Positions 5,767 to 21,627 of a DNA stretch of 64,000 nt are shown piece by piece. The stretch comes from Chitinispirillum alkaliphilum. GTDB lineage: Bacteria; Fibrobacterota; Chitinivibrionia; Chitinivibrionales; Chitinispirillaceae. The position numbers were made by a program, and so were the translations under genes. Location of the stretch: contig LDWW01000004.1 of the NCBI GenBank assembly GCA_001045525.1, positions 124,001-188,000 on the forward strand. The letters run 5' to 3'. Each line of letters begins with the position of its first letter. Position 1 is the stretch's first letter. The notes under the pieces were generated by a model. The model worked only from the letters and a program-made list of their open reading frames with translations. It was not told the origin of the DNA and made no database searches.

Positions 5767-7923
5767 TCAGTCTTTTTTTGTCTTATAATAATGATAGTAA
5801 TATTTATAATATCCGTAACTTGTATATCGATCTGAGAGGTTGATATCATTTAAAACAGTTCCATATATTTTTACTCCGATATTTTTCAATGAATTCATAG
5901 CCCGATATGCTATATCCCGATCAGTATGATGAGACTTAATAACCATGAGTAGTCCGTCAACTTTTGTTCCAAGCAGGGCAGCATCGGTAACTGCAATAAT
6001 TGGCGGAGTATCAAAAAATATCATATCAAAGCGGGCTTTAAGGTCATCGATAATCTGAACCATCTTTTGTGAACCTACCAGCTCTGCGGGGTTAGGGGTG
6101 AAAATACCAGCAGATATCAAATACAGGTTTTCTCTCCCTGTAGGTCTTATGATTTTTTCATAATCGGGATTATCGATAAACAGTTCACTGAATCCAGGTT
6201 CCCGTTTCATTCCAAAAATATGATGCTGAACCGGTCTTCGCAAATCAGCATCCACAAGAAGTATTTTCTTTCCCATTTGCGCATAAGCCATAGCCAGGTT
6301 TGATACGGTCAGTGATTTACCTTCTCCTGGACCAGCGGAGGTGAGCAGCACAGTCTGAACCGGATTGTCGGGGCTGACAAAAGACAAATTCGTTCTAAGT
6401 GATCTGTAAGCTTCAGTAATAACAGAATCATCACCGGTAAACGTAAAAACCTGCCTTGGGTACTGGTTTACTGTGAGCTTATCTTTCTTTTTGGACGAAA
6501 ACCTTCGAACTTCTATATCCTTCTTTTTATTGCACACGATATGCGGGATAGTCCCCAATACAGACAGCCTTAGATATTTTTCCACATCTTCATTTGTCTT
6601 AATTGTCGTATCGTTGTATTCTGCGAGAAAAGCCAGTGAAATCCCTAAACCCAGACCTAAAAGAATTCCAAGTGTATAATAACCAGCTTCGTTTTTTGGC
6701 ATTGGAGCCTGAGGCATTTCAGGCATATCCACTATTTTAAGTCCCATGCCACTGGAGCGACTTTTTATACGCTGTTCCTCGGCTTTACTGAGGAGTATAT
6801 TATAAATATTCTCATAGACTTCTCTTGACCTCTGTAGCCGAATTAGCTCAAGAGATTCGCTAAGCATGTGAGGATTGCCCTGTTTGTAAGTCTGAATAGC
6901 GTTTTCGTAGGAATCCAATCTCCTTTTGAACAACTCCAATTCAGCTTCCTTATTGATTACAGATTTGCGCAATTCCTGCCACTGGCGCATGACAGCAGGA
7001 TCTACGGAAGATGTTTGTCTCTGAAACTGCAAAAGCTGACGTTCTGTATCCTTGATTTCTCTGTCTATATTTGACAGCCCAGAAAACCTTATGCCCAGAT
7101 TTTCAAGGCGCATCCGCTCCGTTTCCAACTCTCTGAGGCGAGATCTGAGACGAAGGAATTCAGGTGAACGCTGCCTGTCCGGGGTGATCTTATTCTCAAG
7201 GTTTGCAAGCTGGTTTCTTTCCGCTTCCAGATCTGCTTCCTTAAGCCCTAAATTCGCCAGACTTGACCCATATGCTTCCTGCAGAGTTTTTAGTCCAGGG
7301 GTCGTGCCGTCCTGGATCTGCCCGGTTCTGTCCTTAAACTTCCTGTATTCGTATTCCGCTTCCTCAAGATTGTCTCTTATCAGCCCTAGTTGATTTTCAA
7401 TTTCTTTCAGCGCCCTTCTGGACTCTTCGCTTTCAACTTCCTGGCATCTGTCCCTTAAAAGCTCAGTGCCTATACCCGCAATCATATAGGCCATCTCTTT
7501 TGTTTTACCCCTTGCGTTAAGTCTTAAAAAGGAAGAATAAGGGGTTCTTCTTAAAGATATGTTTGAGTGTATATATCCTCTTATCTGATCTCTGGAATAT
7601 TCGGGGAAAACTTCACTGAAAATTTCCACACCTATACTGTCAAGCAACATTTCCAAAAAAGATCTGCTGTTAAGAATCCCCTCATAAAAACTCAGGGGCC
7701 TAACATTGGTCTGCATCAACGGGTTTACAGATACACCCTGATCCTCTATAACTACCGTAGAATAAGCCTCGAATACATCCTCAATAGAATCCACATAGAA
7801 ATAGGTAGAAGCGGCCACAGAAATGAAGGCAAAGAATATGATTAACCTCCGGCGCATCATGATTGCCAGATAATCTTTAAGAGCAGGTCTGCTTGAGATC
7901 AGTGTTTCATTTATTCCATTCAT
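5767..7923 (-). CDS. Polysaccharide co-polymerase / bacterial tyrosine autokinase (Wzc-like)
   Basis: 718 residues. An N-terminal Wzz-type part has a membrane segment near residues 30-48, a long periplasmic coiled coil (about 180-400), and a second membrane segment near 430-450. The cytoplasmic kinase follows, with Walker A AGPGEGKS starting at residue 530, Walker A' ILLVDADLRRP and Walker B MIFFDTPP. The C-terminal tail contains nine tyrosines in about 14 residues, the usual autophosphorylation cluster of BY-kinases. In this family the protein sets chain length and gates export together with the outer-membrane Wza protein, whose gene lies directly upstream (1-base gap). This is a complete, ordinary example. 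Confidence 0.95.
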   Translation of the reverse strand: MNGINETLISSRPALKDYLAIMMRRRLIIFFAFISVAASTYFYVDSIEDVFEAYSTVVIEDQGVSVNPLMQTNVRPLSFYEGILNSRSFLEMLLDSIGVEIFSEVFPEYSRDQIRGYIHSNISLRRTPYSSFLRLNARGKTKEMAYMIAGIGTELLRDRCQEVESEESRRALKEIENQLGLIRDNLEEAEYEYRKFKDRTGQIQDGTTPGLKTLQEAYGSSLANLGLKEADLEAERNQLANLENKITPDRQRSPEFLRLRSRLRELETERMRLENLGIRFSGLSNIDREIKDTERQLLQFQRQTSSVDPAVMRQWQELRKSVINKEAELELFKRRLDSYENAIQTYKQGNPHMLSESLELIRLQRSREVYENIYNILLSKAEEQRIKSRSSGMGLKIVDMPEMPQAPMPKNEAGYYTLGILLGLGLGISLAFLAEYNDTTIKTNEDVEKYLRLSVLGTIPHIVCNKKKDIEVRRFSSKKKDKLTVNQYPRQVFTFTGDDSVITEAYRSLRTNLSFVSPDNPVQTVLLTSAGPGEGKSLTVSNLAMAYAQMGKKILLVDADLRRPVQHHIFGMKREPGFSELFIDNPDYEKIIRPTGRENLYLISAGIFTPNPAELVGSQKMVQIIDDLKARFDMIFFDTPPIIAVTDAALLGTKVDGLLMVIKSHHTDRDIAYRAMNSLKNIGVKIYGTVLNDINLSDRYTSYGYYKYYYHYYKTKKD

Positions 7924-7924
7924 A

Positions 7925-8827
7925 TCAATCGAACAATCCTATAAAACTCTGAACAACCACAATAAACAAAAGTGCATTATTCATTATTGAAAGCATGGTC
8001 TTCCAGTCAAACCATCTCGAATAAACCAAAATCACATCTCCTTCATTCACCTGGGGCATGTTATCCATATCCCCCTTATCAATAAGCTCCTGAATATCCA
8101 AAACCTCTTCGATTGTTTTTTCATCCACTCCGGAAGACAAACGCCTGACACGTGTGAGATCGGCATTTTCAGAAGGGCCACCTGCAAGATAAATCAGCTC
8201 AAACACATTTGTCTCACCATCCAGTTCAAATGCTCCTGGCTTTTGAACAGCCCCAAGCACTTTAACTTTACGGTTAATATCCTGTTTAAGAACAACCACT
8301 ACATCCTGGTCGTTAAGGGTGGGCATATCTTCCACTTCGCCCCTAAGAAAGAACTCCTTGAGATTTATGTCATAAAAATGATCCGAGCGTCCTCCTTTCA
8401 AAAGCTTGACCCGCTCAAGATTGGCTGAGGGCAAAATCCCACCAGCTTTCTGGATTACTTCCTGAATCGAAGCGCCGTCACGTACTATAACGGGTCCGGG
8501 ATCTGCAACCTGCCCGAGTACGGTTATGGCTATTTCAGGCTTTTCAACTATAGACACAAGTACAAGAGGATGCTCAATATGACCCGCAAGCCTGAAAACC
8601 AGATCATTCATAAGTTCCGAAGTGGTAACATTTACAATTATCTCATCTGCAAGAAGAGGATATGTTATACTCCCATTGTTACCTACAGTATACCTTCCGG
8701 ACAATTCTGGATAGCCTACAACCCTGATGTCAACCACATCTCCTATATCAATTATGGTTGCCTGAGAATGTACAAACAGTCCAGAAAGAGCTACTACTAG
8801 TAATAATACTTTTTCTTTGATTTTCAT
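7925..8827 (-). CDS. Polysaccharide export protein (Wza-like, SLBB domains)
   Basis: About 300 residues with a signal peptide (ending near HSQA), then the polysaccharide-export domain (IDIGDVVDIRVVGYPELSG...) and two SLBB-type repeats (ITVLGQVADPG and VKVLGAVQKPGAF). A hydrophobic C-terminal segment (NNALLFIVVVQSFIGLF) could be a membrane helix. No lipobox is seen, unlike E. coli Wza. The frame is open to a GTG at 8842 that would overlap the upstream stop. I prefer the ATG at 8827 because AAGGAA lies 7 bases before it. It probably forms the outer-membrane export pore for the polysaccharide made by the following genes. Confidence 0.88.
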   Translation of the reverse strand: MKIKEKVLLLVVALSGLFVHSQATIIDIGDVVDIRVVGYPELSGRYTVGNNGSITYPLLADEIIVNVTTSELMNDLVFRLAGHIEHPLVLVSIVEKPEIAITVLGQVADPGPVIVRDGASIQEVIQKAGGILPSANLERVKLLKGGRSDHFYDINLKEFFLRGEVEDMPTLNDQDVVVVLKQDINRKVKVLGAVQKPGAFELDGETNVFELIYLAGGPSENADLTRVRRLSSGVDEKTIEEVLDIQELIDKGDMDNMPQVNEGDVILVYSRWFDWKTMLSIMNNALLFIVVVQSFIGLFD

Positions 8828-8838
8828 TTTAAATTCCT

Positions 8839-9855
8839 TCACCCTGCCGGAGAAAACACAAAAGGATAGGTTACCGTTACCTCACCTTCAGGTATCGCAT
8901 CAAACCTCCACAATCTTATCCTTCGTACTATATCCTGCTCTAATTCCGAGTTTCCGGTTGTGTTACTTATTACATTTACAGAAACGACACTCCCCGAAGC
9001 CGCAATAGTGAACCGAACGGTTATAACACCGCCCAGTTCCGGATTTCTTCTGAGATGTCGCTGGTAGCTCATTCTTAAGCTTGCTCTATGAGAAGTCACT
9101 ATTTTATTGATTGCGGACTGATCCCTTTTAGCAGAGGAGGAAGCCGCTCCCTCTATGCTTTCAGGCCGCTGAATGACAAATTCCCCCCTTCGTGCAAGAT
9201 CTGCAGTTTTTGCACCACCGATACCTGCAACAAGATCGTCGATTGACTCTCTGTGAGATACGCTTACATCCTTCGTTCTTACCAGTTTTTGATCAAGAAC
9301 ATCCACCCGTTCTGTTCGCTGTAATCCTTTTATCCCCTCAATAGCCTCATCCAGATTTCTTGAACGTCTTCTGTCCGGCTCAATGGAACCAAGTACATCT
9401 GCAACACTACCGCCTTTTTTTGTAGTCTCTCCTGTTCCTGTCAGCATACCAAGCACCCCAACGTTTCTTACCTTCTGCTCCACATGCTCAGTTCTCTCCA
9501 CAACAGCCTGCTTTGCCTGTGCTCGTGTTGCGGGTGGGGCTTTTTGTTCACTCAGATCTGATTCACCCTTTGCCGCGTCCCTTTCTGTTCCGGCTTTTTT
9601 AATAGCCTCAGAAACAGTTTGCCCCCTTGGCGGTGGTCTGTCAACTATAAGGCGTGCAAACCTCTCAGGAACCCTTTCAATTTCAAGCGGGTCTTCCTGC
9701 TCTATCTCAATTGTGCTTGAATACATTATAAATGCGATGTGAAGCAGGATGGAGAAAAGCACAACAGCTATAAAACGGGGGTTCAGAGAATTCCAAAAAG
9801 ATCCCCTGACCTCTTCTATCATATAGTTCAGACCGTAAGTGGCCGCCCCTGCCAC
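8839..9855 (-). CDS. TonB-like energy transducer with AgmX/PglI-type C-terminal domain
   Basis: About 338 residues. A single membrane anchor lies near residues 26-45 (RFIAVVLFSILLHIAFIMY). A long charged periplasmic linker follows, then a TonB/AgmX-type C-terminal domain (GGVITVRFTIAASGSVVSV ... IRLWRFDAIPEGEVTVTYPF). In TonB-family proteins this domain contacts a partner outside the inner membrane while the anchor is driven by ExbB/ExbD. The frame is open to a GTG at 9936 that would overlap the ExbD gene by 56 bases without an SD. I use the GTG at 9855 (GGAG five bases before); a TTG at 9879 with GAGG before it is equally possible. It is the last gene of the Exb/STAS module, just before the polysaccharide exporter. 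Confidence 0.8.
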   Translation of the reverse strand: MAGAATYGLNYMIEEVRGSFWNSLNPRFIAVVLFSILLHIAFIMYSSTIEIEQEDPLEIERVPERFARLIVDRPPPRGQTVSEAIKKAGTERDAAKGESDLSEQKAPPATRAQAKQAVVERTEHVEQKVRNVGVLGMLTGTGETTKKGGSVADVLGSIEPDRRRSRNLDEAIEGIKGLQRTERVDVLDQKLVRTKDVSVSHRESIDDLVAGIGGAKTADLARRGEFVIQRPESIEGAASSSAKRDQSAINKIVTSHRASLRMSYQRHLRRNPELGGVITVRFTIAASGSVVSVNVISNTTGNSELEQDIVRRIRLWRFDAIPEGEVTVTYPFVFSPAG

Positions 9856-9880
9856 ATAAACTCCATCCTGTTCTCTCAAC

Positions 9881-10399
9881 TTATCCCTCTCTTTGACGAA
9901 CAGCAAGAGAAAACTGATTGAACTGCTGCTGTCCACAGGTATACATGATTTTCTTCAGCAAAGCGAACCTGATTCTCTTGTCTCCCTGTATCATCACTTC
10001 ACCTTTGAATTCTGTATCATCCGACAAAATGCTGATTCTCTCGGTAGCTTCTCTTCTTCGTCTGAGCCACTCGTAAAGCTGAGGAATAACCAGATCATCA
10101 GACTCAAGTACCTCATCGACTTCAGCCAAGACGGTATTTTCCGCCATTATGTAACGATTATTCACCACAATTGTCACCATCAGCTCCGGAAATTTTTCTG
10201 CACTTGACTCAGGCAGGAGCAAATCCTGGCTGATTGTGATAATTTCTCCCTGCGCAGAAAAACTTTTCAACAGATAGATAAGTAGAATTGTCATCACATC
10301 AATAAGTGATGTCATCTGTGGTTTGAACCCTTTAAGCTGAGTGTTACTTCTGGGCTTGCGCAGCTGTTTTTGCCTTCCCTTTGAAGCCGGAAAACTCAT
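9881..10399 (-). CDS. ExbD/TolR-type proton-channel subunit (catalytic Asp present)
   Basis: 172 residues with one membrane helix near residues 30-48. The sequence MTSLIDVMTILLIYLLKSF contains the conserved proton-binding Asp (Asp34). A periplasmic domain of about 120 residues follows. The family works with ExbB/TolQ proteins to turn proton flow into motion of a TonB-like protein. The start overlaps the STAS gene stop in ATGA. It is the second of two ExbD-like genes in this operon and the only one with the key acid. Confidence 0.88.
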   Translation of the reverse strand: MSFPASKGRQKQLRKPRSNTQLKGFKPQMTSLIDVMTILLIYLLKSFSAQGEIITISQDLLLPESSAEKFPELMVTIVVNNRYIMAENTVLAEVDEVLESDDLVIPQLYEWLRRRREATERISILSDDTEFKGEVMIQGDKRIRFALLKKIMYTCGQQQFNQFSLAVRQREG

Positions 10400-10722
10400 A
10401 TATCCTCTTCTGATTCCAGTATTTTAAAAATTTTATCCAGATTAGTACCTTCAAACATGCCTTTTATAAAACTGTGCGGTTTTAAAAAGACAAGTCTGCG
10501 GTTTTCCTCTTCCAGAAGACGCCAGGAATAAATAAATGCCCCCAGACCATGGCTGTCAATAAAGAAGGTACGGCTAAGATCTACAACGATAGTACCAAAG
10601 GTATTCTTACAATAGTAATCAAGCTTCGCCATGAGTTTGCTGACATTTTCACCTGTAAGCTCACCAACAGGTGCCAATATAGGAACCTCTCCCTTTTTCC
10701 TGCAACGCATTTTCAGACCCAT
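10396..10722 (-). CDS. STAS-domain protein (anti-sigma-antagonist-like)
   Basis: 108 residues, essentially one STAS domain: a central IVVDLSRTFFIDSHGLGAF with the D-S-x-G-L-G phosphorylation-site pattern (Ser57). In SpoIIAA/RsbV-like proteins this Ser is phosphorylated by a partner kinase. It lies between two ExbD genes: its ATG overlaps the upstream ExbD stop by one base, and its stop overlaps the downstream ExbD start by four. This is an unusual place for such a protein and suggests phospho-control or a structural role at the channel. No anti-sigma kinase is nearby. The domain call is strong, the role inferred. Confidence 0.85.
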   Translation of the reverse strand: MGLKMRCRKKGEVPILAPVGELTGENVSKLMAKLDYYCKNTFGTIVVDLSRTFFIDSHGLGAFIYSWRLLEEENRRLVFLKPHSFIKGMFEGTNLDKIFKILESEEDI

Positions 10723-11240
10723 TAGCCCACATCTCCGGATAAACTGATATCAGGGAATTGCGCCTCTCTGCATATATCCATGAATTTAATTATATCATTG
10801 TAAATAATGTCCTCCTCCAAAACCAAAATTATACTGGTCTGAGAAGGGTACTGGAACTTTATGGCCCGTAGAATTGCCCTGAGTTGATCGAACTGATATT
10901 CACCCCTGACCCGCGGAACCAGATCAAGCTTATCCCCTGTTCCCACGATACGGAATCCACTTGACGTTACAACCAGTGAAATATCCAGATCCGTTCTCTC
11001 CTCCTGTGCAGTCTCATCCCCTTCCCCCGCCTGTGTGGAGGAAGGGAGCGAGAAATCAATAACCGCCAGATGTGTGAATACCGCCATTGAAACCAGAAAA
11101 GGGATCAGTACCATAAACAGATTCATCACCGGTGTAACATCGAGGTCAATCTGCTCCACATCTTTTCCTGTATTTTTTTTCGGCCGTCGAAATACAGGAA
11201 AAGCCTTTTTCATATCTTTATTTGAATCATCACCAGACAT
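10722..11240 (-). CDS. ExbD/TolR-like protein lacking the membrane Asp
   Basis: 172 residues with a cytoplasmic basic N-terminus, one membrane helix near residues 38-58 and a periplasmic domain. At the position of the family's proton-binding Asp the sequence reads TPVMNLFMVLIPF, with Asn40 in place of Asp. A helix-breaking Pro47 follows. It may therefore be a non-conducting structural partner of the second ExbD, which keeps Asp. The gene starts 11 bases after ExbB and is followed by the STAS gene with a one-base overlap. The periplasmic part resembles other ExbD proteins (RAILRAIKFQYPSQTSIILV). Confidence 0.82.
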   Translation of the reverse strand: MSGDDSNKDMKKAFPVFRRPKKNTGKDVEQIDLDVTPVMNLFMVLIPFLVSMAVFTHLAVIDFSLPSSTQAGEGDETAQEERTDLDISLVVTSSGFRIVGTGDKLDLVPRVRGEYQFDQLRAILRAIKFQYPSQTSIILVLEEDIIYNDIIKFMDICREAQFPDISLSGDVG

Positions 11241-11251
11241 ACGTACCTCTG

Positions 11252-11884
11252 CTAAGTTCTTCTCTGGGCAAATAGAAAGTTAAGCAGTCTGACCGAACTT
11301 TCATCAATTTCCTCTATAAGATTATTTGACTTGGCCCCAAGAACAGAGTACATGATCATACAGGGAATGGCGACAATCAGCCCCATTGCAGTAGTGTTCA
11401 TGGCAATTGCAATGCCCTGAGCAAGCACAGTTGACTTTTGGGCCGGATCGGCAGCTCCAAGCGCCCCAAAAGCCTGCTGGAGTCCGAAAATTGTTCCAAG
11501 GAGCCCAAGAAGAGTAGAGATGTTGGCAAAGAGTGACAAATAATGAGTACGTCTCTGAATGCGGGGCAGCTCTCTGAGAGCAACCTCATCCACTGCATTC
11601 TGGATTTCCTGATCAGGCTCCTGTTGCATATAGTGCCACACAGCTGATTCCAAAATGGAAGCAAGTGGGTTTTCCATCCTTGCACAAAGCTGACATGCTT
11701 TCTCCGGTTCACCGTTTCGCACCAGTCGGGTAATTTGAGTAAGCAACGCTTTTGAGTTTATCCTGCAATGAATGTAGTAGTAGATAATACGCTCGATAAT
11801 TACGGCGAATGAAAATGCCGATACAAAGACTATCGGGTACATCCAATTCCCGCCATCCTGAAAAAACTGAGCTACAACCTCCAT
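11252..11884 (-). CDS. MotA/TolQ/ExbB proton channel protein
   Basis: 210 residues with three hydrophobic segments (near residues 15-35, 108-130 and 150-178). The conserved ExbB/TolQ core SLFANISTLLGLLGTIFGLQ and the following AIAMNTTAMGLIVAIPC are present. The family forms the pentameric inner-membrane stator that houses the ExbD helices. AAGGAGG precedes the ATG at 11884. It is the first gene of the Exb-STAS-TonB module and has its own near-consensus promoter about 70 bases upstream. Confidence 0.92.
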   Translation of the reverse strand: MEVVAQFFQDGGNWMYPIVFVSAFSFAVIIERIIYYYIHCRINSKALLTQITRLVRNGEPEKACQLCARMENPLASILESAVWHYMQQEPDQEIQNAVDEVALRELPRIQRRTHYLSLFANISTLLGLLGTIFGLQQAFGALGAADPAQKSTVLAQGIAIAMNTTAMGLIVAIPCMIMYSVLGAKSNNLIEEIDESSVRLLNFLFAQRRT

Positions 11885-11955
11885 TTAACCTCCTTAAAAC
11901 ATACTCGTTCACAGTTTTGGGGCTGATTATAATTATTTATCCCAAGCATCACCAA

Positions 11956-11984
11956 ATTTTACCATTGATCTATCTCACTGTCAA
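11956..11984 (-). promoter_or_regulatory. Sigma70-type promoter for the ExbB operon
   Basis: On the minus strand TTGACA (11984-11979) and TAAAAT (11961-11956) are separated by exactly 17 bases, with the ExbB start about 70 bases downstream. The -35 box overlaps the stop codon of the preceding small gene. This makes an internal promoter that can drive the channel and polysaccharide genes separately from the TPR genes upstream. Confidence 0.7.
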
Positions 11985-12268
11985 TGATCTGTTATATTAA
12001 GCCTTGGATTATGGGAAAAAGGCTGCATAATCTGTGGCTCAAAAGATTTTTTCAGTTCAATATTCCTGAATACCGGTCTTTCCTTGGGGAGAAAAATCAT
12101 GACCTGCGGTTTATCTACCCGCCCTTCAATCTGAAGTCCCACAGTGAATGTGATGACACCCGGTTGTTCAATTCTGTAACTGACTTCCTCTTCTTCAGAA
12201 GATAAAGCCGGTATAGTAGATAATAACAGCATGGAGATTAGAAAAACAAATCTTTCACACCACTTCAT
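11981..12268 (-). CDS. Small secreted protein of unknown function
   Basis: 95 residues with a clear signal peptide (hydrophobic FVFLISMLLLSTIPALS), then about 70 residues that may form a small beta domain (VITFTVGLQIEGRVDKPQVMIFL). The ATG overlaps the stop of the large TPR lipoprotein gene (ATGA), so the two are coupled. I do not recognise the family. Its place between the TPR lipoprotein and ExbB suggests a periplasmic partner of the same machine. Confidence 0.72.
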   Translation of the reverse strand: MKWCERFVFLISMLLLSTIPALSSEEEEVSYRIEQPGVITFTVGLQIEGRVDKPQVMIFLPKERPVFRNIELKKSFEPQIMQPFSHNPRLNITDH

Positions 12269-15195
12269 TTTTCCTCCCTTAAATTGGAGCTGATTTCAGG
12301 AAACTGATAAACATCTTTTCGCGTCTGCTCAGGGGTAATTTCGCTATGCCCTGGAAGTCTGGGGACTAACTTATACGATTGTACCATGGCAGACATCAGG
12401 GGCAAAAAGCCAAATTCCCCATCTTCACCTTTTGATATTTTTACCGCAAGCATATTGTTTCCCCGACGCAATTGTCCTTTGAGATCAGCTCTTAACAGTC
12501 CACCCTCTGCACGGGAGAGCGGAAGTTTTTCATCATTGAGAAAAGCTGTAACGTCTCCAAACGCAGCCATTGAAAAAGAGGCATCGTATGGTACATCCTC
12601 AAGAGAAAACATTCTTCTGAAATAAACGGTTTCAGCTGGTATATACTCTTCACTTTCACTTAAATAATTCTGACCGTACCACATAGGAGACGGAACATTG
12701 TCTGCAATATCGGGGTTGACTAAAGATTCTGCTGCAACCCGATGCGGTATATCCCAGTAACTGTCATCGTAGCCACGCCTGAGCCACCCGCTTTCATCCT
12801 GAACATGATCTGTAACTCTCCACTGTCTTCCTGAAGAGAACCTAATTGTGATTACGGTATCGACCCTTTCACCATATGCAGCAGGATTTTCCTGAAACAG
12901 GCGGACATATGCATGCTTTAAATATTCGCCATCAGCGTAGTTGTTTTTTGCAAATTCAAGCACTGTGGAATAGATATCCAGAGCCTGTTCCTGAAGCTGA
13001 AGGCCTACATCTTCAAACCGTATCACGTACTCCTCTTTTTCATGCTCTGAGATATCCGAGGGAAATGGCGGGTTATATAAAGCCTTATTAGCAAGAAGAT
13101 CGAAATATCTGCCTCTTTCAAAGAGAAGTGTAGCAATGCGCTCTCTTATCAGACGGAAATCGACACCCTCGATCCCATATGCCTCAGCTATTTTCAATCC
13201 TTTCAGATATGCATCCAGTGCTTGACTTTCATATCTTTCCACCTGTCCAGCCAACTGTGTCATGTAAACGAAACGCTCGTACCTGTCAAACGCCTCGGGC
13301 ATAGGAGCATCACGGGCAATACGAACAATTTCAAAGTGATTGTCACCCACCGAAAGGGATGTGGAAGATATTTTTCTACTTGCCATATTATAAAATTCAT
13401 CAATCTGGCTGTAAGTCGAACCCATTTCCAAAACAGTCAGGAACAGATCAATCGCTCTCTGCTGATACGGGGCGATTTTCTGAAGCAGCTGAAATTTTCG
13501 CGCCATAAGAGCCATACCCTCAAGATCTGTAACCGTTTCTGCATCGGTGGCAATCCTGGCCAATGACTTATAATTCTCTGCAGCCATAAAGGGTAAGGCG
13601 GTAATTTTACTTCTTGAGCGGGATATGTATTCATCCTCAAGTTTTTCCCTTATGCCTATCTCAACATTTCTCTCATGGTAATACAGAGCCTTATCAATGT
13701 AAAACCTCTCAACAGCTTCAGCTATGCCCAGTTCAAGAGTCAACTGTTCATCCAAACTGACATCAACGGGCCTTTGCTGTTTGAAAATGCCGTTTGCGAA
13801 ATCCTCATGTGCCTGCCCAATCTGAAAAATACCACGTGTTGTCCACTCCAAAACCCCAAACTGGATAGCAGAAGTATAGGAATCCACAGCCTCTTCAAGT
13901 AACTCATTTTTTTCTCTCAGCAGAGTTCTGTATCTTGCCCTGGGGAGTACAAGCTCAACAGAGTTCATTCTTTCATGATAGATCTCTCCTATTGTAAACT
14001 GAGCTTTTGCTGCATAATAAGCGTTAAGCCCACTGGGTTCACTCATTCTCCTGAAAGTACTTACCGTGTGTGAAAACTGCCTGATCGCTTCGGCCTCTCT
14101 GTTTTGCATGTAAAGAGCAATCCCTCTCATGCACAACGCCTGGATTATCCTGTCAGCATCATTGCCAAATCTTCTGGAAAATTCATCGGTAACTCTCTCT
14201 GCGCTTTCCCAATCCTGTATTGTCCCGTACAATTCGCCAGCCCTGAACAATACATCTGCAGCATCTCTATGTTCAGGATAGAGCTGAACCATTCTTTCAA
14301 AAGTTGCAGCAGCCTCTCTGAACTTTCCACTGTTCTCGAAGCTGAACCCAGCATTGTATATCGCGCTTGGCGCAAGTTCAGACTGAGGATATCTTGCCAC
14401 CAGGCGCAAATAACTTTCAGCAGCATTATCCCACTGATTAAGTTTCTCGTAACATTTGGCGATTCGAAACTGTGCTCTTGGCAAATGAGTGGAATTTTCG
14501 TATCTGTTGATAAGGCGCTGAAAGACAAGTATCGCCCTTGACCACTGCATCTGTCTCTCATAAGCCAGACCAGCATTAAGCAAGGACACGTCTGCAAATT
14601 TCACATCCGGAAATTCAATGGCGACCCTTTCATACTGTGCTGCTGCATTTGCAAAATTTTCCTGCTGCTCATACTGCTCAGCCTGTCTGAATATCGACTC
14701 AGCAATACGTATTATAGCTTCCCTGCTATCCTCTCCTTCGGGCACAGCATCTTTAAGTTTTCTGTACCAGCTCTGAGCATCCTCAAACCTTTGTTCCTCA
14801 TAGTATGCCTGGGCAATCATCCTGATCGCTTCAAAGGAGTAATTTGTCTGTGGGTATTCTTGTACAATTTTTCGATACACACTTCGGCTTTTATCAAACA
14901 TTCTGTTATTGTAATACAGTGATGCCTTTATGGCGATTACCTCAGGACGCTTGGGGCTTTCAGGGTTAAGTGCGAGATAGTTTTCAGAGGCCTGAAGCAT
15001 CAACGATGATGCCCGGGACAGGTTTTGGCTTAGCTCAGGCTGCTCCCCGGTAACTTCTTCCGGGTCCCCGATTTTCTCCTTCGCCTTTTCTTCTGAGTCC
15101 GATAATTCCGGGCTCTGCTCCAGCACAACCCCCTCTTTCACAGATGCACATCCGCAAAGAAACAGAAACAACGTGAATACAAATATCTTTTTCAT
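12265..15195 (-). CDS. Large TPR lipoprotein
   Basis: About 976 residues. The leader MKKIFVFTLFLFLCGC ends in a lipobox with Cys16. From about residue 60 to 400 there are repeated TPR units of the YbgF/BamD type (for example SIYNAGFSFENSGKFREAAA). More irregular helical repeats follow to about 780. The last 150 residues look like a beta-sandwich, galactose-binding-like domain (YDDSYWDIP ... VYFRRMFSL ... NNMLAVKI). The frame is open 19 codons further, but the ATG at 15195 has GGAGG 7 bases before it and overlaps the upstream stop as ATGA. It is probably a scaffold in the envelope, partnered with the second giant TPR protein. Confidence 0.85.
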   Translation of the reverse strand: MKKIFVFTLFLFLCGCASVKEGVVLEQSPELSDSEEKAKEKIGDPEEVTGEQPELSQNLSRASSLMLQASENYLALNPESPKRPEVIAIKASLYYNNRMFDKSRSVYRKIVQEYPQTNYSFEAIRMIAQAYYEEQRFEDAQSWYRKLKDAVPEGEDSREAIIRIAESIFRQAEQYEQQENFANAAAQYERVAIEFPDVKFADVSLLNAGLAYERQMQWSRAILVFQRLINRYENSTHLPRAQFRIAKCYEKLNQWDNAAESYLRLVARYPQSELAPSAIYNAGFSFENSGKFREAAATFERMVQLYPEHRDAADVLFRAGELYGTIQDWESAERVTDEFSRRFGNDADRIIQALCMRGIALYMQNREAEAIRQFSHTVSTFRRMSEPSGLNAYYAAKAQFTIGEIYHERMNSVELVLPRARYRTLLREKNELLEEAVDSYTSAIQFGVLEWTTRGIFQIGQAHEDFANGIFKQQRPVDVSLDEQLTLELGIAEAVERFYIDKALYYHERNVEIGIREKLEDEYISRSRSKITALPFMAAENYKSLARIATDAETVTDLEGMALMARKFQLLQKIAPYQQRAIDLFLTVLEMGSTYSQIDEFYNMASRKISSTSLSVGDNHFEIVRIARDAPMPEAFDRYERFVYMTQLAGQVERYESQALDAYLKGLKIAEAYGIEGVDFRLIRERIATLLFERGRYFDLLANKALYNPPFPSDISEHEKEEYVIRFEDVGLQLQEQALDIYSTVLEFAKNNYADGEYLKHAYVRLFQENPAAYGERVDTVITIRFSSGRQWRVTDHVQDESGWLRRGYDDSYWDIPHRVAAESLVNPDIADNVPSPMWYGQNYLSESEEYIPAETVYFRRMFSLEDVPYDASFSMAAFGDVTAFLNDEKLPLSRAEGGLLRADLKGQLRRGNNMLAVKISKGEDGEFGFLPLMSAMVQSYKLVPRLPGHSEITPEQTRKDVYQFPEISSNLREEK

Positions 15196-18100
15196 CTTGC
15201 AGCCTCCGCTTCCTGTCTGAGGAGGTTTTGTGAGGCCACAATTGCATTCCACGCCGCAGTCTCTCTGTACTTACTGTCAGGATAGCGTCTGGAAACAGCC
15301 ATGTACTCTTGTGCCGCCCTTTCATATTCACCGAGAGAAAAAAGGATCTCAGCATAATTATAATGACACTCATTTGCCCTTGGAGAATCAGGGTAAGCCC
15401 TTACATACTCATCATATGCCTCCATGGCAGATTCATATACCTCAACAGAACTATTCTGCAACGCAAACTGATGCATCGCTATAGCAGCATCGTACAGATG
15501 TCTGGCAGCAGCACTGTCAGCCCTGCCTATCAGGTCCAGGTCCTGTTGCAGAGAGGCCCATTCCCCGTTGCGATTATACCTTTTGAAATATTCAAATTTC
15601 AATTCAGCGGACTGGTACACCGGCAAATCCCTTTCCCTAAGAGCTAAATACTCACTCTCAACGAAAGGACTTTTTCTATACTCCGGATAGGTCTGGAGCA
15701 GAGCAGCATACGTTTTTTGAGAAAGCTGATATCTTCCCTGCTCCCTGTAAACCGAAGCCAGGCGGTGGAGGACCTGAAACCCTCTCTCTTTGTCCTGAAG
15801 TCTCTCAACGAAGGCCATTGCACGCTCAAAACCCCTCTGCCCTGTGATATCTGTTTCGGAAAAACTTATCGCAATATAGTCCACACTTTCCCTTTCAAGC
15901 ATTGCCGCTGCACCTCTGCCATCACCCAGTTCAAGCAAAGCAAGAAAGGAGCTTATGGCTTTATCGGGATTAGACAACCGATACTGCGTCCAGGCTAACT
16001 TGTAAAGTGCCTGATCAAACCATTCGCTCTGCGGGTATTTTAGTACAGCCTGATACTTTCTCAGTGCATTCTCCAATCGTCCTGTATCGAAATAGTGTTC
16101 TCCCGCATACATCCATGCCTGAGGAGCATGCACACTGCGGGGAAAATTTTGAGCCACATTTTTCATATAAAACAGTGCACTGTCAGGTTGTGAGAGATCA
16201 GAAAAACACCACGCCAGACTATAGGAAGCAGAAGCCGCGGTTTCTTCAGATGCATGCAGGGCTAGAACTTTCCTGAATTCTGAAATACTCAGGGAATGAT
16301 TGATTTCAGGAGCAGCAGGCCTGCGCGGTTTAATCATATCTTTGCCATCATTGAAGAGTGAAATCTGCTCCATGTATTCAATCAGGTCAGTCTCATACTC
16401 TTCATACTCACGCAGATACCTTTCTGTCTCCCTCGAATAATAAAGTTCTCCAAGATGATATCTGAAATACGCTTCATCCTCAGGGCGGAGCGAAAAGCTG
16501 TTCAGAAAGTCATTTATTTGACTGGTCAGATTGCTGTAAGCTGTCACTTTATGCTTCTCTTCAAGCTGAATCAAAGAGTCTATCTGGAAAGAGAAAGTCT
16601 CACTTGTCGCATGGGATTGTTCATGATCCGGATCCTGAATGGATGAAAGTTGCTGCTGATAGCCGAGAACAGATTTGCGCCAATCCAAATACTCAAGTTC
16701 CCAGTTATACCTAAGCAGCCTCATCTCCACTTGCAAAACCAGGGTGCGATTGACAACATCTCTTATTCTCTGACGGTTTCTCCTTGAGTGGTGGATTTGA
16801 ACAGCACCATTCTCAGCGTCCTCACCAATGACAGCCAAAAAGAGAGAATCTGCCCTATGAAGCATTATTTCCCTTTTGTCTGAGAAATCGCTCTCATGGA
16901 ACGTACCGGTATGGTAATGCCGATTTATGAATTGTTGCACCCCTTCAGCCCTGCGATACAAAGAAGATATCCACTTGTGATCTCCTCTTTGCTCTTCCTG
17001 CAAATTTTCAAGTAAATTTTGCATCTGATTTATCGACCGGGTTAGGCGCTTGGACTCTTCAGGGGTCAGTCTGTTTTGCTTCCTTTCCTCAAGTTCATTG
17101 ACCAGATTTGCAATCCGCCTCTCCTCCCTGTCTACAAAAAGAACTCTCTGCCATTCCCTTTGAGCTTTCTGAATGTAGTGCTTTGACAGAACGTAAGCTC
17201 CTTCTGCAGCATAGGCAGACTGTGGGTATAAATTGAGAAGTTTCCTTAAAGTCCTCTCTGCACTTTCATTCATACCCTTGCCAATATAACACCACGCAAC
17301 CCCGTATAATATCCGGTCAATATTTTGATCTCCCTTAAGCAGTGCAAAATACTCCTCCAGAGCTCTGTCATAATGCCCCATCTCATAATCCATCTCAGCA
17401 ATCGATATCCTGATATTTCTTGCAGCCTCTCTGTCTTTTTCACCCGAAGGTCTGAAGCGCAGAGCACTCTCCATAACATTTCTAGCCATAGAAGCATCTC
17501 CTGAGAGCAAATAACTCCGGCCCAAAGCATGCATTACATGCAAAGCATATGGGTGGTTTCTTGCAACCATAGCAGCAAGTTCACTATAGAGATTGCTCTC
17601 CGCCCCCGAAGCAATACCACCCTCTATAGTCAGCCATATCAGCAGGTTTCTCTCAGCCCCCCTGAAATCAGACATGTCAAGATCAGTTCCCTCTCTCCAC
17701 AACTCATTATACCGCCCCAGTGCAAAGAGACTCTGAATTTTCATTGAAATTTTATGTTCGTCGATACCCTGTTTTTCAATCGAGGCAACAGCATCGGCAT
17801 ATCTTCCGGTCGAGAACTGAGCTTCTAAAATCAAACGTTTTAGTTCAGCGAGTTGTTGAGAATCCCGATAACGATTCATCATAAGCATCAGTCTTTCATA
17901 CGCCAACTCGTTTTTTTCTTCACTGAGAAACTTTCTTACCCTGCGTATTTCGATATTAAACATAAAATCCTGATCTGCAGAGGAACTGTGCCTGACAATC
18001 TCATCCTTAATGGCTTCAAGTTTTTCTGATACTCTACCTGAACGCTGCCCCAATCCACTCCTGAGTATATCCAAAAACTCTTCAACTTCCGATACACTTT

Positions 18101-18650
18101 CTTTTCTCTCATACTTCATAACACCGGAAACATTATCAACTATAGCGATAACTCTATCAATATCTTCCCATACCCTGTCAATTTCCTTTAGGATACCGAG
18201 CATTTTTTCTATTCTCATCCTGCTTTCCTGCTCAAAAAAATCAAACATTCCATCCGCAGGTCCCGAGACAATCATCTCCCGCATGATCCCAACCGCCTCA
18301 ACCAAAGGAGGCTTTAGAGCTTCTGTTCTTGTATTAAGTTGTTGATTTTGTCCCTCAGCAAAACTTATCATCCTATCGACTCTAACCATCAGTTCATCAT
18401 CAAACCCAGTGACCCTTGCGGGAAAGAGCTGAAAGTACCTCAGGTCAACCAACATATCAGATATCGCACCTAATTCCTCATCGATAAGATTAATTTTGTC
18501 CCACTGGGAACCGAATCTCCTTACCAATGCGTCTCTTTGCTGCCAATCATAATCAGAGCGGGCATAAACGGAAAAAGACAAAACCAGAACAGCCAGCAAC
18601 ATAGTAGTCGCCACTTTTCCAACTTTGCCTATTTTAAGAAATGTAAACAT
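15192..18650 (-). CDS. Giant secreted TPR protein
   Basis: 1152 residues with a signal peptide (TTMLLAVLVLSFSVYA). An N-terminal helical, coiled-coil-rich part (residues about 40-260) leads into many TPR repeats. Examples are YNELWREGTDLDM, EYFALLKGDQNIDRILYGVA and SASYSLAWCFSDLSQPDSALF. The C-terminal YbgF-like repeats are the clearest (ANECHYNYAEILFSLGEYE). It is likely periplasmic. The stop overlaps the start of the TPR lipoprotein. Proteins of this type serve as multi-partner scaffolds; the exact function is unknown. Confidence 0.82.
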   Translation of the reverse strand: MFTFLKIGKVGKVATTMLLAVLVLSFSVYARSDYDWQQRDALVRRFGSQWDKINLIDEELGAISDMLVDLRYFQLFPARVTGFDDELMVRVDRMISFAEGQNQQLNTRTEALKPPLVEAVGIMREMIVSGPADGMFDFFEQESRMRIEKMLGILKEIDRVWEDIDRVIAIVDNVSGVMKYERKESVSEVEEFLDILRSGLGQRSGRVSEKLEAIKDEIVRHSSSADQDFMFNIEIRRVRKFLSEEKNELAYERLMLMMNRYRDSQQLAELKRLILEAQFSTGRYADAVASIEKQGIDEHKISMKIQSLFALGRYNELWREGTDLDMSDFRGAERNLLIWLTIEGGIASGAESNLYSELAAMVARNHPYALHVMHALGRSYLLSGDASMARNVMESALRFRPSGEKDREAARNIRISIAEMDYEMGHYDRALEEYFALLKGDQNIDRILYGVAWCYIGKGMNESAERTLRKLLNLYPQSAYAAEGAYVLSKHYIQKAQREWQRVLFVDREERRIANLVNELEERKQNRLTPEESKRLTRSINQMQNLLENLQEEQRGDHKWISSLYRRAEGVQQFINRHYHTGTFHESDFSDKREIMLHRADSLFLAVIGEDAENGAVQIHHSRRNRQRIRDVVNRTLVLQVEMRLLRYNWELEYLDWRKSVLGYQQQLSSIQDPDHEQSHATSETFSFQIDSLIQLEEKHKVTAYSNLTSQINDFLNSFSLRPEDEAYFRYHLGELYYSRETERYLREYEEYETDLIEYMEQISLFNDGKDMIKPRRPAAPEINHSLSISEFRKVLALHASEETAASASYSLAWCFSDLSQPDSALFYMKNVAQNFPRSVHAPQAWMYAGEHYFDTGRLENALRKYQAVLKYPQSEWFDQALYKLAWTQYRLSNPDKAISSFLALLELGDGRGAAAMLERESVDYIAISFSETDITGQRGFERAMAFVERLQDKERGFQVLHRLASVYREQGRYQLSQKTYAALLQTYPEYRKSPFVESEYLALRERDLPVYQSAELKFEYFKRYNRNGEWASLQQDLDLIGRADSAAARHLYDAAIAMHQFALQNSSVEVYESAMEAYDEYVRAYPDSPRANECHYNYAEILFSLGEYERAAQEYMAVSRRYPDSKYRETAAWNAIVASQNLLRQEAEAAR

Positions 18651-18676
18651 ATTTTCCGTTTCACTGTTCTGACTAA

Positions 18677-19906
18677 TTAATCATCAGAAATACTTTCTAT
18701 TCTTCGTTGAATTTCCTGAAGACGTTCTTTTGCATCTAAATTTTCATCTCTTGTTACCTCTTCCCTGATTAGAGTCTGCAGCCTCTCATCAAAGTCGATC
18801 CTCACCGGCTCTCGCTTTTTCTTCAAAAGCATATAACTTCTCAGCATCTCGGCAGTGTTTCGTCTATGCCGTATAGGGATAGTCAATGAGACATCAATTT
18901 TCCATTTCACAAACCAGGGATCGAAGGGATCTTTGATACCTCTTCTAACTTCATCTGCAAATCTGCTCGTATCTTTATTGTGCTCTTTATTATATTGATC
19001 ATTGAGAAATTTCAGATGTTCACGGTTAATGCCAGACTGCTGATTTACACTTAATAAGAGTGGCAGAGAAACAGACAAAACCGCTCCACCCGGATATCTT
19101 ACATTACCACCCAGTGTTAAGTAACTTGGGTTTTCAGTAAAATAAACCAGCCAGCGTTTATCCCCCATCTCAAATTCCTTTGGCTCGAGAAAGTTTTGAA
19201 AGGCTTGGAGTGAATAAGTGACAAACAGATCAAAATCGTAGGCACTGTAAATAATGCCCGCATCAATAAGATACTGGTAGTTGGTTCTCATATCCCTCTC
19301 AAGGGGCATCCTCAAACCCAGATTTGTAATCAGTCTCAAAGGGACTCTTCTATGACGAGCAATAAAGTCGATCTCATGGATCAGTCTCCCTTCTACAGCA
19401 CCTCCTTCCAGCACATACCCATCCGGCATAAACCCACGATACCCTCCTATGGTAGGAGGTCCTTCCGTGAAGTTATGAACATATCCAAGTGACAGTGCTG
19501 TCCCGGAGAAACGAATATTATCATTGTCAGGAAGAGTCAGCTTTAATTCTCCAGAAACCGATCCCGGGCTAAAAGCCCAGGAGAGAGGTCTGGATTCCAG
19601 AGTAAAGCTACAGAAATCCAGCACCCCTACTCTCAACCGAGCCTCAGGAAAAGCCCTGGCATTTGAAACCCATCTCCTTTTCTCTCTTCTTATACTGTCT
19701 AGATTTATCGGAGATTCATCCCAGACATGACCGACCGCTCCTATCTCAAACCAAATATCTCCCTGTGCAGTTGTGTTGGCAGTCCTGCAGTTATAAAACC
19801 TTTCGCCCCGGTCCCGTATATCCTTAACCTGAGCACCGAGCGGCACAAGCTCTGCAACAGCAGCACAAATCACCAGTTTCACAAAGATTATTGTTCTGAA
19901 ATCCAT
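18677..19906 (-). CDS. Predicted outer-membrane barrel protein with C-terminal coiled coil
   Basis: 409 residues. A signal peptide (ending near VPLGAQ) is followed by about 300 residues of alternating, aromatic-rich strands (FDLFVTYSLQAFQNF, YLTLGGNVRYPGGAVLSVSL). The C-terminal tail is charged and helical (KERLQEIQRRIESISDD). The layout matches the next gene upstream (19915), including a shared PSYLTL segment, so the two look like distant paralogs. I infer an outer-membrane barrel with a periplasmic helical tail; no named family is recognised. It lies 26 bases before the giant TPR gene. Confidence 0.68.
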   Translation of the reverse strand: MDFRTIIFVKLVICAAVAELVPLGAQVKDIRDRGERFYNCRTANTTAQGDIWFEIGAVGHVWDESPINLDSIRREKRRWVSNARAFPEARLRVGVLDFCSFTLESRPLSWAFSPGSVSGELKLTLPDNDNIRFSGTALSLGYVHNFTEGPPTIGGYRGFMPDGYVLEGGAVEGRLIHEIDFIARHRRVPLRLITNLGLRMPLERDMRTNYQYLIDAGIIYSAYDFDLFVTYSLQAFQNFLEPKEFEMGDKRWLVYFTENPSYLTLGGNVRYPGGAVLSVSLPLLLSVNQQSGINREHLKFLNDQYNKEHNKDTSRFADEVRRGIKDPFDPWFVKWKIDVSLTIPIRHRRNTAEMLRSYMLLKKKREPVRIDFDERLQTLIREEVTRDENLDAKERLQEIQRRIESISDD

Positions 19907-19914
19907 AAAAAAAC

Positions 19915-20976
19915 CTAATCCAAAGACCTAAGCAGCTGCTCTATTTCACTGATTTTATTCTCGATTTCTTCCCTGCGTCTCAACGCTTCTTCTTCCCTGT
20001 CAAAATCAAATGATGATTCCCCATCAAACCTCTCCAACTCGGCTCTGAGATTTTCCCTTTCATGCACAACCTGTCTCACCAGATCTTCTTCAGCTTCACT
20101 CTCCCGTTCCTTAAAAATCAGAGTTCTGACAGCCTCTGTATTTGACTCCCTGAACAAAAGCGGTACTTCCATTCCAAGTGAAAGAGTCAGGTATGATGGG
20201 TTGAGGCCATTTCTGCTTTTAAGATCATTGTAAACCAAAACCCTCACTGACCCAAGTAACCTGAAATTATTTCTGAACCGATATTTAATTCCCGGCTCAA
20301 TAAACAAAAGAGCCTGATCATAACTTTCATCACCCGGAAAACTACTCCTGCGTTTCTCTTTATATGCCCCATATCTGATGTCAATGAAGTAGCTGTGCCT
20401 GTAGAGCTTCCACTCCAAAGCTGCCCTCAGAGAAAGCTGATCGTATACGTGAAGCAAAACGGGATCATCTACAAACGAGCCCTTGAAATACACCTTCAGA
20501 GGCAGCCAGTCAACAAGGGCTATCCAATCCAGATCAACAACAAGCCCAAGCGTTATAAAAGAATCGAAATCGGGTTTATCGGGCGAAGCCGTCCCGCCTA
20601 AGGTATCTGCAACAGTTGATAGTACGAGGTCCACAATTCCGGCAATTCCGAAAAATCGCAATCTGTCATTTCGAGGTGTAGTGACCTGCATCGATACCCC
20701 CAATGGACCGATTCCCTGTCTGTTTATTACTCCCCTGCCAGAAAACTGGATCATTTCGGCTACACCAATTGCCCCACCCATATACAAACCCGCACTCATG
20801 TCATTAAGACCAATCCCTCCGCGGGATATACAATACGCGGTTATATTGCCACTACTGAGCACATTGGAGGCAGGGATATTTACAGTCCCCTCATTTCTCC
20901 CACGGCGAACCTCCGGGTTTGCATAGGCAAAGACAGCACTTAGCATAATCACAGAAATCATACTTGTGAAATTCAT
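19915..20976 (-). CDS. Predicted outer-membrane barrel protein, paralog of the next gene
   Basis: 353 residues with a signal peptide (MISVIMLSAVFAYA). Beta-strand-rich stretches follow (FFGIAGIVDLVLSTVAD, YRFRNNFRLLGSVRVLVY, PSYLTLSLGMEVPLLF). From about residue 285 the C-terminus is a charged coiled coil ending in EEIENKISEIEQLL. It shares the barrel-plus-coil plan and the PSYLTL strand with the protein at 18677. It starts 5 bases after a small HTH gene, suggesting one operon. It is probably an outer-membrane partner of the TPR/Exb system, by context only. Confidence 0.68.
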   Translation of the reverse strand: MNFTSMISVIMLSAVFAYANPEVRRGRNEGTVNIPASNVLSSGNITAYCISRGGIGLNDMSAGLYMGGAIGVAEMIQFSGRGVINRQGIGPLGVSMQVTTPRNDRLRFFGIAGIVDLVLSTVADTLGGTASPDKPDFDSFITLGLVVDLDWIALVDWLPLKVYFKGSFVDDPVLLHVYDQLSLRAALEWKLYRHSYFIDIRYGAYKEKRRSSFPGDESYDQALLFIEPGIKYRFRNNFRLLGSVRVLVYNDLKSRNGLNPSYLTLSLGMEVPLLFRESNTEAVRTLIFKERESEAEEDLVRQVVHERENLRAELERFDGESSFDFDREEEALRRREEIENKISEIEQLLRSLD

Positions 20977-20981
20977 AAATC

Positions 20982-21239
20982 CTAAATTCCCCTGACCTTT
21001 TTACCTGATACCACCACGGGAATGAGTGTAGTGTCATTAAAGCGCTTGCCATTTTTCCTGAGGCTCCTCTTATAACGCTTTAACTCCTCAACGTTTGCCT
21101 TGGTGAAAAGTCGCCACCCGTGAATATTCCTTTTATCCGTAATATTCAGTGACGGTTCTTCCAGCCAACGCTTAAGAGTCGAAACAGAGACCCTTAGTTT
21201 TTTGGCCACCTGCCCAGTCGTCAAATAGTTACATTCCAT
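20982..21239 (-). CDS. Small MerR-like helix-turn-helix regulator
   Basis: 85 residues. The N-terminus LTTGQVAKKLRVSVSTLKRW is a MerR/excisionase-type winged HTH, followed by a wing (RNIHGWRLFTKANVEELKRY) and a basic tail. The frame is open to a TTG at 21257; I use the ATG at 21239, which has GGAGG 11 bases upstream. It heads the long minus-strand operon of barrel, TPR and Exb genes. A dyad lies 28 bases before it, so it may regulate itself and the operon. Ligand and targets are unknown. Confidence 0.75.
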   Translation of the reverse strand: MECNYLTTGQVAKKLRVSVSTLKRWLEEPSLNITDKRNIHGWRLFTKANVEELKRYKRSLRKNGKRFNDTTLIPVVVSGKKVRGI

Positions 21240-21266
21240 CCTTCCATTACCCTCCAAAGCTTGTCA

Positions 21267-21519: not shown

Positions 21520-21541
21520 ATGAAACTGATTGAAAATCCTT

Positions 21542-21615: not shown

Positions 21616-21627
21616 TTTAAGATGAAA

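Follow-up and report, generated by a model that had tools for sequence, protein, structure and literature searches.

Fibrobacterota is a phylum of chitin and cellulose degraders, and in one of its members, Chitinispirillum alkaliphilum, the genes of an ExbBD/TonB-type motor run directly into those of a Wza/Wzc polysaccharide exporter. The question raised by this locus is what such a motor does beside a sugar-polymer pump. (The window is the whole stretch of DNA that was analysed, 64,000 nucleotides of contig LDWW01000004.1, and all coordinates refer to it.) Within one branch of the phylum, the motor, the giant scaffolds that go with it, and a pair of outer-membrane barrels are always inherited together with the export pump, usually in a single operon; the system suggests a machine that uses inner-membrane energy to move or lay down surface polysaccharide.

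The operon is an uninterrupted run of 13 minus-strand genes (5767-21257), in the order HTH regulator, bar353, bar409, TPR1, TPR2, small exported protein, ExbB, ExbD1, STAS protein, ExbD2, TonB-like protein, Wza, and Wzc; its spacers are at most 96 bp, and the majority of the genes abut or overlap. The reading frames named in the original prediction are present on the minus strand where it had placed them, with their Pfam domains confirmed; the extent that it gave (8839-21239) holds the genes described, but the functional unit reaches on to 5767 (Wzc) and to the glycosyltransferases. The first gene (20982..21257, alternative ATG start 21239) encodes a MerR-like HTH regulator (MerR_1, 4.8e-9), found at the same place in all relatives whose sequence covers that place. 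The largest gap, 96 bp (11885..11980), is a module boundary: in the distant family f11 the break in the operon falls at precisely this point. (A promoter-like TTGACA-17-TAAAAT lies by this gap at 11984-11956 on the minus strand; it is only suggestive, as the region contains about as many promoters and terminators as expected by chance.)

The two genes that follow the regulator, bar353 (19915..20976; 15-sequence alignment) and bar409 (18677..19906), encode exported outer-membrane barrels with C-terminal coils. Profile comparison identifies them as paralogues (hhalign E 3.8e-21); neither has a match in Pfam or NCBIfam, and a search of solved structures with the barrel profile found none. The AlphaFold model of bar409 (pLDDT 69.7, pTM 0.67) has about 12 strands and a periplasmic C-terminal helix (residues 351-408), and its best matches among known structures (VIA) are 12-strand barrels, with Z of 19.9 to FapF, 18.7 to KdgM, and 17.6 to NanC, although a pLDDT of about 70 limits the strand count. 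FapF serves in polypeptide secretion, and KdgM and NanC are 12-strand sugar porins.

TPR1 (15192..18650) is a 1152-aa exported scaffold with TPR arrays (Pfam), whose sole match elsewhere in its own genome is the TPR protein of the Glt-type core complex. TPR2 (12265..15195) starts at an internal ATG that gives 976 aa and is a lipoprotein with a lipobox Cys35 (ORF numbering) invariant in 14 of 14 sequences. The GltC family model of NCBIfam matches neither protein, and a contig scan with TPR2 gave matches in Fibrobacterota only, though the same patterns also missed f11 and f13 members. The C-terminal domain of TPR2 is homologous in sequence to rhamnosidase 3w5m (E 1e-14), and its model (pLDDT 86.5) has a Z of 12.3 to GH2 domains; it is a jelly roll akin to GH78/GH2 sugar-binding domains, with sugar binding predicted. 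(In GH2 enzymes the jelly-roll fold has non-binding structural roles as well.) The next gene (11981..12268) encodes a small exported protein of 95 aa with the family motif KPQVMIFLPKE, which keeps its position in relatives and has a weak relative between TPR and ExbB in the core complex of another genome (G166).

Beyond the gap lies the motor. The ExbB/TolQ-type ring protein (11252..11884; MotA_ExbB, 1.8e-28) is 72-88% identical to its relatives and is followed by ExbD1 (10722..11240; ExbD, 2.1e-13), a STAS-domain protein with a D-S-x-G-L-G motif (10396..10722; STAS, 1.3e-12), and ExbD2 (9881..10399; ExbD, 3e-13). ExbD1 carries Asn40 in place of the ion-binding Asp and ExbD2 keeps Asp34, each invariant in 14 of 14 sequences. 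(The Asn was considered as a hallmark of the barrel/Wza system and rejected; the core-complex and uptake motors of the genome share it, which makes it a trait of this phylum's paired-ExbD motors.) The STAS protein, which probably has a regulatory role, is missing from two related loci (L035 and L045) and from the f11 motors. The TonB-like protein (8839..9936, start codon uncertain) matches TonB_C in Pfam (2.9e-6), but its tail scores higher as the AgmX/PglI (NF033768, 1.4e-26) and GltG (NF033760, 3.9e-29) type of NCBIfam, and the AgmX-type remark of the original prediction holds for this tail domain. NF033768 reaches 92.5 bits against a cut-off of 40; the GltG profile reaches 101.7 bits against a whole-protein cut-off of 650, the alignment lying at the profile's C-terminus. 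Two residues of the transmembrane helix are invariant, S62 and H66, which form the SxxxH coupling motif. The motor had been called proton-driven; an ion-driven motor is supported, but the ion may be either the proton or sodium, given the sodium-dependent pumps of C. alkaliphilum (PMC4814513).

ExbB-ExbD-TonB genes beside sugar-porin-like barrels could also mean that the barrels take up sugars, iron, or vitamins in the classical TonB manner, and a Fibrobacter TPR/ExbBD cluster has been interpreted as importing cellodextrin (PMC6851124). Here such uptake is very improbable, and this alternative, raised with the original prediction, is weakened: neither barrel has a Plug or TonB_dep_Rec domain (Pfam), the same genome holds a separate cluster of ExbBD, TonB, and a TonB-dependent receptor (L031), and ExbD2 groups in a tree with its own genome's core complexes and not with the uptake motors (support 99/94). 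The operon's motor is distinct both from this nutrient-uptake cluster and from the genome's Glt-type core complex.

The run ends with the Wza/OPX protein (7925..8842; Poly_export and two SLBB domains, Pfam) and Wzc (5767..7923), a chain-length co-polymerase with a tyrosine autokinase domain (Wzz/GNVR/AAA in Pfam; NF008568, 1e-55; TIGR01007, 1.8e-55). Four minus-strand glycosyltransferase genes come after Wzc; those at 4542-5675, 3610-4545, and 1595-2629 match GT4/GT2 families, and that at 2653-3591 resembles GT2 by sequence only. A GT4 adjoins Wzc in the relatives too. Features of the Wzx/Wzy pathway are present, with an OPX protein and a tyrosine-kinase co-polymerase side by side plus glycosyltransferases; a Wzx-type flippase adjoins Wzc in f11, and no Wzy polymerase was matched among the genes scanned, a part of the cluster. 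The genome has six OPX genes and five ExbD loci, linked only in this operon's pair.

In Wza, Pfam finds no Wza_C at E 0.01, as in class 3/D1D2 OPX proteins, which depend on a barrel partner (PMC9603273, PMC9601211), and no outer-membrane barrels other than bar353 and bar409 were recognised in the cluster. These two might therefore be the polymer exit of an energised export channel, replacing a non-spanning Wza and opened or driven by the TonB-like arm, a role that would suit both their nearest folds (FapF, then KdgM and NanC) and their strict co-occurrence with Wza. Yet the known OPX-partner porins have 18 strands (PMC9601211) and a pore of 12 strands is narrow, the lumen in the model (pLDDT 70) could be either open or closed, and the hydrophobic, conserved C-terminal segment of Wza might itself reach a membrane; the channel reading is possible but rather doubtful.

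The tie between motor and exporter rests on gene order and co-occurrence, which, with the gene content, domain homologies, and conserved motor residues, are direct observations. The order from HTH to Wzc is the same in all order-level relatives whose contigs permit the check (STAS is missing in two), and the TonB-Wza junction is kept in 14 of 14 cases within the order. Because this order recurs in every sufficiently long related locus while the parts share about 35-85% protein identity, the arrangement is not due to chance. Conservation of gene order was the main test attached to the original prediction, which passed it. All 25 of the 167 Fibrobacterota genomes that have the barrels also have the cognate Wza subfamily, found without barrels in three further genomes, all incomplete (Fisher 9e-27, the 167 genomes not being independent). 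The set is jointly absent from several genera of family f1, from family f7, and from G031, whose congener G025 has it. In f11 the barrel/TPR operon is separate from an ExbB-ExbD-ExbD-TonB-Wza-Wzc operon, and six f11 genomes have motor-Wza-Wzc with no barrels nearby; the motor-export link therefore stands by itself. G166 has barrels and motor together without Wza, its parts probably being on separate loci. (In G153, which is 79% complete, the cognate motor was not found; its best ExbB, at 233 bits, was rejected because the tree places it among nutrient-uptake motors.)

This separability of modules (f11, G166), along with a single HTH gene and a STAS protein that suggest joint control, would fit mere co-expression, in which capsule export and an envelope-maintenance motor are induced together, for example in cyst formation or attachment, and stay physically uncoupled. 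However, f11 retains motor and Wza-Wzc together despite the lost barrel link, and the pairing with one Wza subfamily is near-exclusive; co-expression alone is quite improbable.

The preferred reading, with chances that we judge evenly balanced, is that the operon may encode a single machine that spans the envelope and serves just one Wzx/Wzy-type polysaccharide, its motor handling the polymer at the outer surface. ExbB and the ExbD1/ExbD2 pair would form an ion-driven inner-membrane motor, and the GltG-tailed TonB-like protein would transmit the motor's force through the periplasm. The scaffolds would be TPR1 and TPR2, an outer-membrane lipoprotein that would contact the polymer through its GH2/GH78-type sugar-binding-like domain, and the two 12-strand barrels, with their periplasmic coils, would hold the complex fast in the outer membrane. 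Once Wzc and Wza had made the polymer and delivered it from the inner membrane, the motor complex would pull, spread, or deposit it at the outer surface, much as Myxococcus Agl-Nfs acts on the Exo spore-coat polymer, which AglRQS-Nfs moves, with AglR contacting NfsG (PMC3858216). That these parts form one complex, that energy is coupled to it, that it acts on the polymer, and that the energised step is deposition and not export are inferences. (A shared operon alone is no proof of a shared complex.) An ion-driven trans-envelope machine tied to polysaccharide export and capsule or surface deposition, as first proposed, is supported by the gene order and the near-perfect co-occurrence with Wza.

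The same parts, namely a GltG-type tail, paired ExbDs, large TPR proteins, and barrels, recall Glt, and Fibrobacterota live attached to chitin or cellulose (PMC4814513); the motor might accordingly move outer-membrane complexes as in Myxococcus gliding, with the polysaccharide as slime or adhesin. Such motility or attachment is unlikely, and the gliding that had been suggested gains no specific support: the likeness to Agl/Glt is to a widespread core complex, known since 2011 in non-gliding bacteria without an assigned function there (PMC3169522), and the genes linked here are for export, not motility. Pfam finds no FHA domain on the GltG-like protein; no small MglA-like GTPase is evident in an Arf-family search that is a weak test, its weak matches being mostly long, translation-GTPase-sized frames; and the flagellar protein FliG does not separate carriers from non-carriers, being common in both.

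On its gene set and domain matches, the system is most likely related, at some distance, to the Agl-Glt/Nfs core complex (gltD, E, G, C and aglRQS; Luciano 2011, PMC3169522; Wartel 2013, PMC3858216). Both have ExbB with two ExbDs (AglR, Q, S), a GltG-type TonB tail, a large exported TPR protein, a TPR lipoprotein, outer-membrane barrels, and a tie to polysaccharide (Exo, slime). Among the gliding accessories, the GltJ model reaches 36.7 bits against a cut-off of 450. In contrast to the Myxococcus complex, the operon here lacks FHA and has a STAS protein, a paralogous pair of barrels (predicted at about 12 strands) without a named counterpart, and a sugar-binding-like domain on its TPR lipoprotein; Wza and Wzc lie inside it, but in Myxococcus exo and nfs/agl occupy different loci. 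Fibrobacter succinogenes FSU_2397-2403 (PMC6851124) shares the TPR-TPR-ExbB-ExbD-ExbD-TonB order and the GltG-type tail, and its counterpart in this genome is likely L030 (G000:C2:181-190 kb), but this type is without barrels of this family and without Wza/Wzc and is almost phylum-wide, as against 25-28 of 167 genomes for the operon. With the composite OPX/beta-barrel translocon (EpsY/EpsX, Wza/Wzp; PMC9601211, PMC9603273) the operon shares an OPX protein without Wza_C, an obligately co-occurring barrel, and a Wzc-type co-polymerase. Unlike that translocon, it has barrels predicted to have about 12 rather than 18 strands (AlgE/PgaA-like), in two copies, joined to a motor and a TPR scaffold. 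Synthase-dependent export (AlgK/AlgE, PgaA, BcsC) likewise sets a TPR scaffold beside an outer-membrane barrel for polysaccharide; here there are Wza/Wzc and an ExbBD motor and no synthase, and the likeness is one of architecture.

A literature search for an ExbBD motor linked to Wza/Wzc, or for an energised outer-membrane polysaccharide step, found no precedent. The operon may offer such a step in secretion; that it does so by an ExbBD/TonB-type power source, with a Wzx/Wzy polymer exported or loaded by way of the two 12-strand barrels, which sugar-binding TPR lipoproteins would hold, is a tentative suggestion. In Myxococcus the polymer link is known by experiment and the genes lie apart, whereas here a related motor, sugar-binding-like domain included, is genetically locked to a single Wza/Wzc pair throughout an entire order and outside it as well. 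Whether motors of this kind arose for the handling of surface polysaccharides can now be tested directly.

The minus strand from 21257 to 5767 carries a single run of genes in which intergenic gaps do not exceed 96 bp and the majority of genes overlap or touch. In order of transcription it encodes a MerR-like HTH protein, two predicted outer-membrane barrels (bar353 and bar409, which are paralogues), TPR1 (1152 aa), TPR2 (976 aa counted from an internal ATG, with a lipobox Cys invariant across 14 relatives), a small exported protein (95 aa), ExbB, ExbD1, STAS, ExbD2, a TonB-like protein, Wza (Poly_export and two SLBB domains), and Wzc, which carries a tyrosine-kinase domain; glycosyltransferase genes come after Wzc. 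The original prediction had read these genes correctly. The TonB-like protein has a tail of AgmX/PglI type (1.4e-26) and GltG type (3.9e-29), both far better matches than generic TonB_C. Within its transmembrane helix, S62 and H66 are kept by all relatives, and their spacing fits SxxxH, the motor-contact motif of TonB. The TonB His is itself conserved (PMC12204202). A 404-aa protein encoded outside the operon (27649-28863, plus strand) has a C-terminus that matches the profile of this TonB/GltG tail. Elsewhere, tRNA-Arg lies at 21541-21616 and upstream of it a group (21821-24279, minus strand) in which a radical SAM/SPASM protein adjoins a 138-aa ORF (21821-22237) and a membrane protein with weak resemblance to MauE, possibly a small peptide-modification cluster; the glycosyltransferase stretch has an ankyrin-repeat protein (422-1516, minus strand) at its far end.

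The window's genome (~4.4 Mb, 160 contigs) has Chitinispirillum/Chitinispirillaceae MAGs as its closest named relatives. TPR1 is present in 17 further genomes of the same order (36-57% identity, some only as contig-end fragments). The gene order, which would have told against the original prediction had it varied, is the same in these relatives: reading the neighbours of TPR1, the order from HTH to Wzc is identical at every same-order locus on a sufficiently long contig, and the TonB-Wza junction is kept in 14/14. The STAS gene is absent from two loci (L035, L045). Searching 84,980 species genomes with a TPR2 alignment brought up 14 loci with the same gene order, many in genomes already counted through TPR1; all are Fibrobacterota, at a sensitivity too low to rule out other phyla.

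Among 167 Fibrobacterota genomes, bar409 is found in 25. The Wza subfamily belonging to the system (E <= 1e-45) is found in all 25 and otherwise only in G026, G030, and G036, genomes that are 68-83% complete. ExbB at the cognate level (over 260 bits) occurs in 26 genomes, namely 24 of the 25 barrel genomes plus G026 and G030. The exception is G153, whose best ExbB was rejected as a cognate motor by its tree position among uptake motors. Fisher's test for co-occurrence of barrels and Wza gives 9e-27, with genomes that are not independent of each other; more telling are the joint absences of the set inside the clade, in genera g4, g5, g7, and g10 of the window's family, in family f7, and in G031, which shares a genus with G025, where the set is present.

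Beyond the order, the set breaks at defined seams. G166 (family f13) has an unbroken HTH-to-TonB run, with Wza-Wzc on a different contig. Six genomes of genus g37 (family f11) carry the set in two pieces: a freestanding barrel/TPR/small module (seen only in part on the short stretches of G155 and G157) and, at a locus away from it, ExbB-ExbD1-ExbD2-TonB-Wza-Wzc; in G158 genes for a Wzx-type flippase and glycosyltransferases come next. The link between motor and export genes therefore does not simply follow from their place in the barrel operon. The f11 split point, between small and ExbB, is the site of the window's largest intergenic gap, where a promoter-like match (11 of 12, extended -10) is among the region's two best, with regional counts near chance. 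In g37 the motor operon is without STAS, and a STAS-bearing protein of 287-314 aa is encoded close to the barrel/TPR module, at a distance of a few genes (L074:17619-18482, L081:18873-19817).

Three kinds of motor are set apart by the trees. Besides the system, the window's genome has a Glt-type core complex (L030; TPR-TPR-ExbB-ExbD-ExbD-TonB with a GltG-type tail), which resembles F. succinogenes FSU_2397-2403 (PMC6851124) and the core complex of Luciano et al. (PMC3169522), and an uptake cluster (L031; ExbB-ExbD-ExbD-TonB-receptor, with a Plug domain and a tail that is not GltG-type). The ExbD2 tree places system and core motors together versus uptake motors (support 99/94); in the ExbB tree the system sits in a group of its own, moderately supported (83/79). 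The ion-binding position is Asn in every copy of ExbD1 and Asp in ExbD2, an asymmetry rejected as system-specific because core and uptake motors also show it. Of the six OPX (outer-membrane polysaccharide export) genes and five ExbD loci of the window's genome, only one of each is linked to the other. A second adjacency is seen in genus g13 (G025, G031), where an OPX protein (Poly_export and SLBB, 530-572 aa) is encoded directly upstream of ExbB-ExbD-ExbD (L118:3452-6882, L119:3889-7427); in L118 TonB and a TonB-dependent receptor follow, L119 is arranged alike, and this motor belongs to a group other than the system's.

Sequence comparison relates the C-terminal 220 residues of TPR2 to domains that bind sugar in rhamnosidase 3w5m (1e-14) and in GH2 enzymes. 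In structure comparison their model (pLDDT 86.5) resembles sugar-binding domains of GH2 at Z 10-12, and its best 50 structural matches are all glycoside hydrolases. By sequence and model, this domain is related to sugar-binding domains and is a putative binder. It is present in G166 (131 bits) and weaker in f11. The GH2-like jelly roll recurs at residues 1442-1597 (E 4e-10) of the 1747-aa core-complex TPR of G166 (L107:2-5245); a sugar link may thus be older than the operon. In that complex a protein weakly related to the small exported one (L107:5308-5616, 15.8 bits) lies between TPR and ExbB, as in the window. For bar409, AlphaFold (12 sequences, pLDDT 69.7, pTM 0.67) gives a model with ~12 strands and C-terminal helices at residues 351-408, which best matches FapF (Z 19.9), a COG4313 channel (19.7), KdgM (18.7), and NanC (17.6).

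Parts, linkage, and co-inheritance are established; how the system works is inferred, probably as follows. Ion flow would drive ExbB with ExbD1/ExbD2; a GltG-like arm would pass force via the TPR scaffold on to the barrels and to TPR2, the latter in contact with polymer from Wzc-Wza; and the complex would lay down or move that polymer. Because C. alkaliphilum, which makes lipid cysts, depends on sodium-dependent pumps (PMC4814513), the motor ion could be sodium. The chief rival holds that the barrels themselves are the polymer exit pore, consistent with a system Wza that is without Wza_C, like class 3 OPX proteins (PMC9603273, PMC9601211). Of the roles originally predicted, capsule or surface transport is favoured by the conserved linkage with Wza-Wzc and by co-inheritance; gliding is less favoured. 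The alternative of uptake, named originally as a refuting outcome, is less favoured too.

The closest experimental precedent for the proposed laying down or moving of polymer is AglRQS-Nfs, which moves Exo polymer round the spore after its export, with AglR touching NfsG (PMC3858216). The system shares its motor and GltG tail with the Glt/Nfs core complex and probably works like it, but the FHA feature of GltG is missing and the TonB-like protein falls below the whole-protein GltG cut-off. Consequently, we call the system a divergent relative, a variant that is not itself a member of Glt or Nfs.
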